Of a DNA stretch of 64,000 bases, positions 17,927-23,930 are shown piece by piece (position 1 is the first letter of the stretch; each line of letters opens with the position of its first letter). The translations under genes were made by a program, and so were the position numbers. Source of the stretch: Sedimentisphaerales bacterium. Lineage in GTDB: Bacteria > Planctomycetota > Phycisphaerae > Sedimentisphaerales > SM23-30. The DNA is taken from the NCBI GenBank assembly GCA_028281535.1, contig JANQJS010000019.1, forward strand, positions 62,001-126,000, given 5' to 3'. Under the pieces are notes generated by a model. It was given only the letters and a program-made list of their open reading frames with translations, was not told the DNA's origin and did no database searches.

Positions 17927-18496
17927 TTAGTCTTCCTCAGATTCATTTTCCGCTTCAGTTGCTTCGACTTGAGGACTGCGTGCTACAGAAACTTTGGTCG
18001 GGCGTAAAACAATATCACCCATACTATATCCACGTGAAAATTCAGCGATGATGCAATTTTCGTCAATTTCATCGCTTTCTTGTCGCATCATAGCTTCATG
18101 TAAATTGGGGTCAAAGTTGTCACCAGGATTAACTTCAATAGGTTGAATCGATTGGCCAGATAGCGTGTCGATCATATGATCATAAACAATTTTCACACCT
18201 TTTAAAACGGCAGCCACATCCTGATCTTCCGTTACAGAAGATAATGTCTGATCAAAATTATCAAGTATAGGAAGTAGTGCTTTCGCCATGTCCTGCTTGG
18301 CAAATTGCGATGCCTGTTCAATTTGTTTGTGTGAACGTTTTTGGTAGTTTTGGTAATCCGCTGCTAGACGCTGAAGTTGCTCTTTCAATTCCTGAATCGT
18401 TTGCTGGTCATCGTTTACGGCCTCCGTTTCCTGAGCTTCTTCAGGTTGAACGTTCTCTTCGACTTTTTCTTCTTTTTTCTTTTTCTTCGCACTCAT
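17927..18496 (-). CDS. grpE: GrpE nucleotide-exchange factor for DnaK
   Basis: The 189 residues have a Lys/Glu-rich N-terminal tail, a long coiled-coil helix (about 30-75: LKEQLQRLAADYQNYQKRS) and the C-terminal beta domain with NPGDNFDPNLHEAMMRQES and GYSMGDIVLRPTKVSVA, the standard GrpE signature. It releases ADP from DnaK in the cytosol. It lies 39 bp downstream of dnaJ. No dnaK is present in the window, so the K gene is elsewhere. Confidence 0.95.
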   Translation of the reverse strand: MSAKKKKKEEKVEENVQPEEAQETEAVNDDQQTIQELKEQLQRLAADYQNYQKRSHKQIEQASQFAKQDMAKALLPILDNFDQTLSSVTEDQDVAAVLKGVKIVYDHMIDTLSGQSIQPIEVNPGDNFDPNLHEAMMRQESDEIDENCIIAEFSRGYSMGDIVLRPTKVSVARSPQVEATEAENESEED

Positions 18497-18535: not shown

Positions 18536-19675
18536 TTAATCATTTCCTGTTAAGTGTTCTTTAATCTTTTCAAAAAATCCTTTGCTCTGAGGCATGACAC
18601 TTTTGTCTTCTGTTTCCGCGAAATCGCGAAGCAGTTGTTCTTGCTTGCTATTGAGCTTTTTGGGAATCTCAATCAAAATCTGGATCAGTAATGCACCGCG
18701 TCGGCCAGAGCGTATGTTTGGCATGCCTTGTCCTTTAACTTGAAGAACGGTGCCATGTTGCGTGCCCGCAGGGATTTTGACTTCTTCTTTGCCATTCAAC
18801 AATGGTACATCAATCGAAGCACCTAGTGCTGCTTGAGCAAAACTAATGGGCATACGCACAATCAAGTCATCACCTTCTCGAATGAGAATCGGATGTTGTT
18901 TTACTTTAATGTAGCAATAGAGATCGCCACGAGGTCCGCCACCTTTACCAGGTTCGCCTTGGCCGGTCAGTCGAACGGCTTGTCCTTCTTGGATACCCGC
19001 TGGGATTTGAATCTGGATGGTACAATTTTTTGAGATTAATCCTTCACCGCTGCAGGCTTTGCAGGGAGTGGTAATGATGGTGCCTTTTCCTGCACATTGT
19101 GGGCAGGTGGTGACCATGCGAAACATGCCGCCTAAGCCAGATTGTTGCACCTGACCTTGGCCGCCACATTGCGGACATACTTCAGGGGGATGGCCCGGTT
19201 CCGCGCCACTGCCATCACACGTTTGGCAGATATCCATACGTGTGAATTCGATTTCTTTTTCAACGCCGGTGAGGACCTCATTGAGGGTGATTTCGATTTG
19301 TGTTTCAATATTATAGCCGCGAGAGGCTCTACCTCTGCCGCCACCTCGACGCTGCCCACCAAAAACACCACCACCAAAGATATCGTCAAACATGCTGAAG
19401 ATGTCATCAAATCCCATATGGGAAAAGTCATGCATACCGCTGCCGCGAAGACCATCATGTCCATATTGATCATATCGTTGGCGCTTTTCAGCATCACTCA
19501 AGACTTCATAAGCTTCAGCGCATTCTTTGAATTTCTGTTCAGCTTCTTTGTCCCCGGGGTTTTTGTCGGGATGGAATTTGATCGCCTGGCGTCGATAGGC
19601 TCGTTTGATATCATCCGCTGAGCTATCTTTCTGAACGCCTAAGACTTCGTAATAATCCCGTTTTGTCGCTGCCAT
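18536..19675 (-). CDS. dnaJ: Chaperone DnaJ
   Basis: The start at 19675 ([14 protein letters not shown]) is chosen over an in-frame upstream start at 19732 because class I DnaJ proteins begin within a few residues of RDYYEVLGV; no strong Shine-Dalgarno is seen for either. The product of 379 residues has a J domain with the HPD tripeptide (KFHPDKNPG), a Gly/Phe-rich linker ([17 protein letters not shown]), four CxxCxGxG zinc motifs ([32 protein letters not shown]) and the C-terminal substrate-binding domains. It stimulates DnaK ATPase. A large inverted repeat fills the gap to groEL upstream. Confidence 0.95.
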
Positions 19676-19710
19676 GATTTGTTCGCTTTGTGTTTGTGAA
19701 TAATATATAA

Positions 19711-19791
19711 AATCGGCCGCAAATCGCAGCATCTTGATTTTGCGGCCTGCCTTGGGGCAAACCGGCTAAGATTTTGCGATCGCGGCCGATT
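19711..19791 (-). promoter_or_regulatory. Long inverted repeat between groEL and dnaJ
   Basis: AATCGGCCGC (19711-19720) plus ATCGCA (19723-19728) pair with TGCGAT (19775-19780) plus GCGGCCGATT (19782-19791), giving a 16-bp stem with a small internal loop that encloses about 46 nt. The minus-strand 3' side is followed by ATTTTATATATT. It may be a terminator or attenuator after groEL or a processing/stability element that sets dnaJ-grpE expression. Function is inferred. Confidence 0.6.
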
Positions 19792-23496: not shown

Positions 23497-23575
23497 ATTT
23501 ATTGTCTCCTAAAGTAAGTTTATGTCATCAAATTCAGTCATTTGATAAAGACAAATTCCAACACTGACTATCAAA

Positions 23576-23590
23576 GCAAAGTAAGTGCCA
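23576..23590 (-). promoter_or_regulatory. Sigma-54 (-24/-12) promoter of the groEL-groES-groEL operon
   Basis: On the minus strand the 15 bases read TGGCAC-TTACT-TTGC, an exact match to the RpoN consensus TGGCAC-N5-TTGC with GG and GC at the required spacing. The predicted start is near 23564, about 68 nt before the groEL ATG at 23496. No CIRCE element is present in the intergenic region. Confidence 0.8.
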
Positions 23591-23689
23591 AATCGAGAGT
23601 AAATGGGAGCTAGAGGCTTTAAGGTTCTGGAATATAATGGCTTATAATTTTAGCAAAATTTCGTTTTTTCCCCAGCCTGATTGCCGTAC

Positions 23690-23702
23690 TGCCAGTGTGA
23701 CA
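23690..23702. promoter_or_regulatory. Enhancer-like site 1 (TGCCA-N3-TGACA)
   Basis: TGCCA-GTG-TGACA is an imperfect dyad with a 3-bp centre. It is the first of three like sites between the two divergent sigma-54 promoters, about 105 bp upstream of the groEL -24 box. Likely bound by an unknown enhancer-binding protein (inference). Confidence 0.6.
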
Positions 23703-23719
23703 AATAGTTACGGCTGAAA

Positions 23720-23732
23720 TGCCAACCTGACA
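23720..23732. promoter_or_regulatory. Enhancer-like site 2 (TGCCA-N3-TGACA)
   Basis: TGCCA-ACC-TGACA begins exactly 30 bp from site 1, close to three helical turns, so the two sites face the same side of the DNA. The conserved five-base arms with unrelated centres point to selection on the arms. Confidence 0.6.
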
Positions 23733-23756
23733 GCCAAGCCAGATATGGAAAAGTTC

Positions 23757-23769
23757 TGCCAAAATGGCA
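23757..23769. promoter_or_regulatory. Enhancer-like site 3 (TGCCA-N3-TGGCA, perfect dyad)
   Basis: TGCCA-AAA-TGGCA is the perfectly symmetrical version of the site, 37 bp from site 2 and about 88 bp upstream of the clpB -24 box. Confidence 0.6.
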
Positions 23770-23850
23770 TTCTTTTCTGGGTGGCTCGATTCGTGTAAAA
23801 AATACCTTAAGTTGTTGTTATATATGTTTTTATGTTTTTCATGGCTGTTT

Positions 23851-23865
23851 TGGCACGCCAATTGC
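23851..23865 (+). promoter_or_regulatory. Sigma-54 (-24/-12) promoter of clpB
   Basis: TGGCAC-GCCAA-TTGC is an exact match to the RpoN consensus, here even with the extended G of TGGCACG and an A after TTGC. The predicted start is near 23877, about 54 nt before the clpB ATG. It is divergent from the groEL sigma-54 promoter. Confidence 0.82.
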
Positions 23866-23930
23866 AATAGTATCTAGTAGAGGAAAAATGAAAAACGAGA
23901 TCAAATATCTATATATAAGGAAGAGATAAT

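Follow-up and report, generated by a model that had tools for sequence, protein, structure and literature searches.

Predicted enhancer-dependent sigma-54 control between the divergent groE and clpB genes of a Sedimentisphaerales bacterium

Bacterial heat-shock control is taught as being either repressor-based, as exemplified by HrcA, CtsR, and HspR, or sigma-factor-based, as in the case of sigma-32. These systems share their target genes (groE, dnaK, clpB, and hsp20) with the one described here. However, HrcA/CIRCE, CtsR, and HspR act by repression and sigma-32 by the abundance of the sigma factor, whereas the control proposed below would be exerted by activation at a distance. Also related to it are HsfA–HsfB from Myxococcus xanthus, an NtrC-like two-component activator at the heat-shock gene lonD, and the small heat-shock gene ibpB from E. 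coli, at which sigma-54 acts. Both cases differ from the present one in concerning single targets, and neither is known to extend to a whole chaperone regulon.

A 2025 in silico survey of sigma-54 regulons, covering 33 bacterial classes, predicted that Planctomycetota and Bacteroidota are enriched in sigma-54 promoters for GroEL, GroES, DnaK, DnaJ, GrpE, IbpA, and Clp/Lon-type proteases, the Planctomycetota signal coming mainly from Planctomycetia and less from Phycisphaerae (PMC12316311). As it was predicted there, sigma-54 control of chaperones in this phylum is not new. The text of the survey, however, holds no chaperone enhancer sequence, assigned activator, divergent groE–clpB region, receiver–groESL operon, or link to HrcA loss. 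Likewise, a literature search outside of which most of the subscription papers lay turned up no description of the enhancer or its assignment to an activator, and none of the divergent groE–clpB region, the REC-groESL operon, or the lack of HrcA.

The region considered here (positions 23497–23930) belongs to a 64-kb stretch of DNA, hereafter the window, and its features are collected in Table 1. An earlier note, made from the sequence alone, had described two exact TGGCAC-N5-TTGC sites in this region as divergent sigma-54 promoters of groE and clpB, and both their positions and their strands proved right. Each box holds the invariant GG and GC at the correct spacing, and no other exact match occurs in the window; shuffling gave a mean of 0.10 exact matches, and two matches were obtained in 0 of 100 shuffles. 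With an approximate sigma-54 weight matrix, written after the consensus, these boxes were also the two top-ranking sites of the window (19.2 and 17.1 bits), the third one scoring 14.1. The motif is enriched in the genome as a whole, since 26 exact matches were counted versus 3 for the reversed control pattern, and a single rpoN gene is present on contig C23 (PF04552, E 1.7e-59). With the +1 predicted 12 nt downstream of the GC, the distance of 54–68 nt before the start codons given in the earlier note is correct for the 5' UTRs (54 nt for clpB and 68 nt for groEL) and not for the gaps between box and ATG, which are 65 nt for clpB and 79 nt for groEL.

Table 1. Features of the proposed groE–clpB control region and its flanking genes (window coordinates)
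Feature	Position	Strand	Description
grpE, final gene of presumed operon	17927–18496	-	Pfam GrpE
dnaJ	18536–19732	-	Pfam DnaJ and DnaJ_C; true start may be an internal ATG near 19675
groEL2, 536 aa	19798–21408	-	translation; NCBIfam GroEL above cut-off
groES, 95 aa	21448–21735	-	translation
groEL1, 568 aa	21790–23496	-	NCBIfam GroEL TIGR02348 above cut-off
sigma-54 promoter, groEL-groES-groEL-dnaJ-grpE cluster	23576–23590	-	TGGCACTTACTTTGC; exact consensus; predicted +1 at about 23564
UAS copy 1	23690–23702	.	TGCCAGTGTGACA
UAS copy 2	23720–23732	.	TGCCAACCTGACA
UAS copy 3	23757–23769	.	TGCCAAAATGGCA; perfect palindrome
sigma-54 promoter, clpB	23851–23865	+	TGGCACGCCAATTGC; exact consensus; predicted +1 at about 23877
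clpB, 863 aa	23931–26522	+	NCBIfam ClpB TIGR03346 above cut-off

As already claimed in the earlier note, CIRCE is absent, even with up to three mismatches allowed; the strict sigma-32 consensus has no match in the window, and a sigma-70 scan of the region gave one match versus 1.5 expected. All three elements were rejected for this region, being at chance level or absent. No hrcA gene was found in the window genome, and it is missing from 197 of the 198 genomes of the class, in a search that was positive in 7 of 14 control genomes. The role of HrcA/CIRCE, missing from the class, would apparently be filled by the enhancer system described below. GroEL is normally essential, and therefore a basal promoter or some basal activation of groE must exist, although none was identified. 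This expectation of a basal promoter is what speaks for the sigma-54 boxes being chance or decayed sequences, with the genes transcribed from unseen sigma-70 or alternative-sigma promoters. Such an explanation is hardly credible, given that the boxes are exact, that the shuffle statistics argue against chance, that the sigma-70 scan remained at background, and that the boxes are conserved at the same genes in hundreds of genomes with no control matches.

The identities of groEL and clpB hold, as both GroEL and ClpB exceed their NCBIfam cut-offs. The groE cluster, however, is longer than the groEL-groES-groEL of the earlier note, where dnaJ and grpE were missing, and its intergenic gaps span approximately 40–65 bp. 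The same gene types are found in Rhodopirellula baltica under neighbouring locus numbers (Cpn60 RB8966, Cpn10 RB8969, GroEL RB8970, DnaJ RB8972, and GrpE RB8974), all of them heat-induced (PMC2754498). This resemblance was the chief ground, within the analysis, for assigning the genome to Planctomycetota. In this organism, ClpB, GroEL, DnaJ, GrpE, Hsp20, and DnaK respond to heat, and the rpoN transcript remains unchanged on heat shock, an observation that is neutral toward the model proposed here (PMC2754498). Induction of the chaperones by heat or misfolded protein would also be expected in the Sedimentisphaerales bacterium.

The stretch separating the two promoters holds a 13-bp palindrome, TGYCAN3TGRCA, in three copies, which the earlier note had not mentioned. 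They are conserved alongside the promoters, as expected for the upstream enhancer of a sigma-54 promoter, and no further copies occur in the window; genome-wide, 56 palindromes were counted versus 11 for the reversed control, and TGCCATTTTGGCA and its variants recur across the class. At chaperone genes, the motif stands upstream of the sigma-54 box, in most cases at a distance of 83–142 nt. The layout of the array is that of a putative enhancer common to two divergent sigma-54 promoters. Short inverted repeats upstream of chaperone genes are also the usual form of heat-shock repressor operators, so that the palindrome might be an operator for a protein with HrcA- or HspR-like function, on sigma-54 or other promoters. 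This is very unlikely, because the nearest copy in the sampled sites lies 83–149 nt upstream of the -24 box (with a single exception at 56 nt), which is an activator distance, HrcA is absent, and sigma-54 promoters are silent without an activator. No 10.5-bp peak indicative of helical phasing was detected in the enhancer–promoter distances, and no motif matching the palindrome was found in the text of papers on Desulfovibrio regulators.

Comparison with relatives, a check that had been set beforehand, found the -24/-12 boxes again in five further genera of the family, together with the divergent arrangement of groEL and clpB. The groEL1 box is kept upstream of groEL1 in family relatives and the clpB box upstream of clpB in relatives, and the divergent layout with both promoters is maintained in genomes G005, G007, G008, G010, and G012. 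This conservation strongly supports the RpoN control of groE and clpB predicted in the earlier note, and both would depend on sigma-54 in vivo. Such control, which was called unusual, is so against E. coli or Bacillus, but not within the phylum, where it looks like the rule.

The conservation extends to the combination of enhancer and promoter. A composite pattern (TGNCAN3TGNCA, followed after 70–130 nt by TGGYAYN5TTGC) was searched with its reversed version as control. It was found in 11 of the 13 genomes of the family, with 30 matches versus 1 for the control, as well as in 110 of 198 genomes of the class and 122 of 294 of the phylum, the control matching in none of the genomes listed for the last two. 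A census of 90 distinct sites from the returned loci, chosen blind to function, placed 73 of them upstream of chaperone genes—GroEL (22), DnaK (21), Hsp20 (18), ClpB (11), and GrpE (1)—and 6 upstream of a receiver-only gene heading a groESL operon. The remaining 11 precede genes without assignment, at least two of which could be recognized by eye, one as Hsp20 (L356) and the other as a receiver protein (L176). At one locus (L068, G007:C40:49702-49828), an enhancer and a sigma-54 box precede the gene for a protein of 407 aa that lacks any Pfam match and is possibly a new heat-shock protein.

A second search began at dnaK and was independent of the composite pattern. Sigma-54 sites of at least 11.6 bits were present in 28 of 29 readable upstream regions, including that of the window genome, and CIRCE in none of the 29. 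These sites occur also in families without the strict composite, which is missing from many genomes (families f10, f15, and f9); there, the dnaK sigma-54 site is kept and the enhancer is degenerate or unrecognised.

In the window genome, the combination of enhancer and sigma-54 box is also found upstream of hsp20 (contig C20), of a REC-groES-groEL operon (C34), and of a small operon on contig C3, and dnaK (C25) is preceded by an exact sigma-54 box, scoring 20.6 bits with the approximate matrix, and by two one-mismatch palindromes upstream of it. The C3 operon (L385:161-2498, minus strand; sigma-54 box at L022:1075-1090) encodes short HTH-like and unknown proteins, one of them with a match (E 1.3e-11) to PDC-M36A, a candidate anti-phage family, and there are matches to two PHROGs of unknown function. 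Its two enhancer copies are identical in sequence to the groE pair, with a spacing of 29 versus 30 nt. This operon is possibly a defence or mobile module under heat-shock control.

In each of the seven cases read, as well as in the window genome, coding sequence for GroES and/or GroEL follows the receiver-only gene. Operons of this type under the enhancer are found phylum-wide (L402:3733-6235; L163, L176, L357, L358, L360, L382, and L383). The position of the gene in the operon suggests that its product may take part in feedback, perhaps by serving as a phosphate sink, but the receiver copy of L163 lacks the phospho-acceptor aspartate.

Regarding the protein that would bind the enhancer, the window genome encodes nine true sigma-54 activators, and a comparison of the 13 family genomes revealed five conserved activator groups, one of them flagellar. 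The strongest candidate for binding the palindrome is predicted to be the response regulator encoded at C55:35855-37210, with REC, Sigma54_activat, and HTH_8 domains, whose gene directly follows that of a histidine kinase. This kinase holds only HisKA and HATPase domains, with no Pfam sensor domain, and adjoins the regulator both in the window genome and in 8 of the 9 family orthologues that could be read. The kinase–regulator pair (L386:2353-6000) lies directly downstream of pnp, the gene for polynucleotide phosphorylase as judged by eye from its KH/S1 region, an arrangement also observed in several class relatives (L202, L203, L211, and L213).

The case for this regulator comes from six genomes, 95–98% complete, which carry exactly one sigma-54 activator. 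In all six, this activator is orthologous to the C55 regulator, its activator motif being intact and its recognition helix reading GERTLYRK, and in all six dnaK is preceded by sigma-54 sites of 15.0–19.9 bits; the kinase is not adjacent to the regulator in these genomes. The palindrome upstream of dnaK is exact in G173 and has one mismatch in G167, G149, and G114, and no enhancer-like site was found at dnaK in the other two (G189 and G209). The sigma-54 polymerase depends on an activator for promoter opening, which leaves the single one as the sole candidate in these genomes, and its retention together with the dnaK sigma-54 promoters makes the C55 regulator the best one. The recognition helix is near-invariant in approximately 50 orthologues, the full-length identity of which is often only 45–55%. 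A related-locus search with the regulator returned paralogues that are distant, most of them carrying a different recognition helix.

It is doubtful that chaperone control by sigma-54 and the palindrome runs through another activator, whether L014-type, GAF-type, or lineage-specific. The number of activators in the genome leaves room for it, L014 being present in 11 and L010 in 9 of 12 relatives, and in family f22, which has composite matches, no clear C55-type orthologue could be recognized. In about 40 class genomes, most importantly those of f22, the regulator has only a weak best match (E above 1e-120). However, all the alternatives are absent from the six near-complete genomes with only a C55-type activator that keep dnaK sigma-54 promoters, and G173, with its exact enhancer, is one of them. 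As for individual proteins, L012 adjoins flgBC, which has its own sigma-54 promoters, and is flagellar, the RtcR-type L017 is restricted to the window genome (1 of 13), and L018 is shared only with G004 (2 of 13), so that none of them was retained as a general or chaperone regulator. Autoregulation did not serve as a guide either, the combination of enhancer and sigma-54 box being found beside none of the activator genes.

The evidence supports a region under enhancer-dependent sigma-54 control, a mechanism known in kind, applied to the central heat-shock regulon. With considerable confidence, positions 23497–23930 are proposed to be a bidirectional heat-shock control region dependent on an NtrC-family activator, likely the C55 regulator, with the same module operating regulon-wide. 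The sigma-54 RNA polymerase would wait as a closed complex at both divergent -24/-12 promoters. Heat or misfolded protein would shift the balance between the kinase and phosphatase activities, and the phosphorylated regulator would bind the three TGYCAN3TGRCA sites, its ATP hydrolysis then driving the formation of the open complex at both the groE and clpB promoters. The same enhancer–promoter module is expected to run hsp20 and the second, REC-groES-groEL, operon. As the kinase is minimal and Pfam recognizes no sensor domain in it, the signal could plausibly be sensed through the membrane or by the titration of chaperones.

The C55 regulator resembles AtoC, ZraR, and NtrC in its REC, AAA+ sigma-54 activator, and Fis-type HTH domains and in its adjacent kinase. 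Nevertheless, it falls below the corresponding NCBIfam cut-offs (429.5 versus 714 for AtoC and 374 versus 760 for ZraR, with NtrC also below), the equivalog cut-off for ZraSR/AtoSC proper included, and it differs from them in the lack of a Pfam sensor domain in its kinase and in having cytosolic chaperones as proposed targets. A broader proposal, for which the arguments appear evenly balanced, is that the heat-shock response of the whole phylum has this two-component sigma-54 activator as its master regulator, acting through TGYCAN3TGRCA on groE, dnaK, clpB, and hsp20 and replacing HrcA/sigma-32, with a receiver-only feedback part that possibly drains phosphate from the kinase or tunes it. If true, an ATP-dependent enhancer switch for cytosolic chaperones would represent a third logic of a conserved stress response, and would explain the chaperone response of R. 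baltica without changes in the usual regulators. RpoN and one activator would then likely be essential genes, and the system would offer a concrete, testable candidate for the sensing of misfolded proteins. The 13-bp enhancer also offers a means of annotating the regulon throughout the phylum.

Other intergenic exact sigma-54 sites of the genome (L002, L004, L390–L392, L396, and L397) lie upstream of predicted secreted, transporter-like, and unknown genes, and are probably targets of other activators. Two further activators have distinctive N-termini: that of L018:934-2397 comprises approximately 180 residues with no Pfam match, and that of L013:583-2412, which is kept in most family genomes, holds a weak low-molecular-weight phosphotyrosine phosphatase-like domain followed by a PAS domain.
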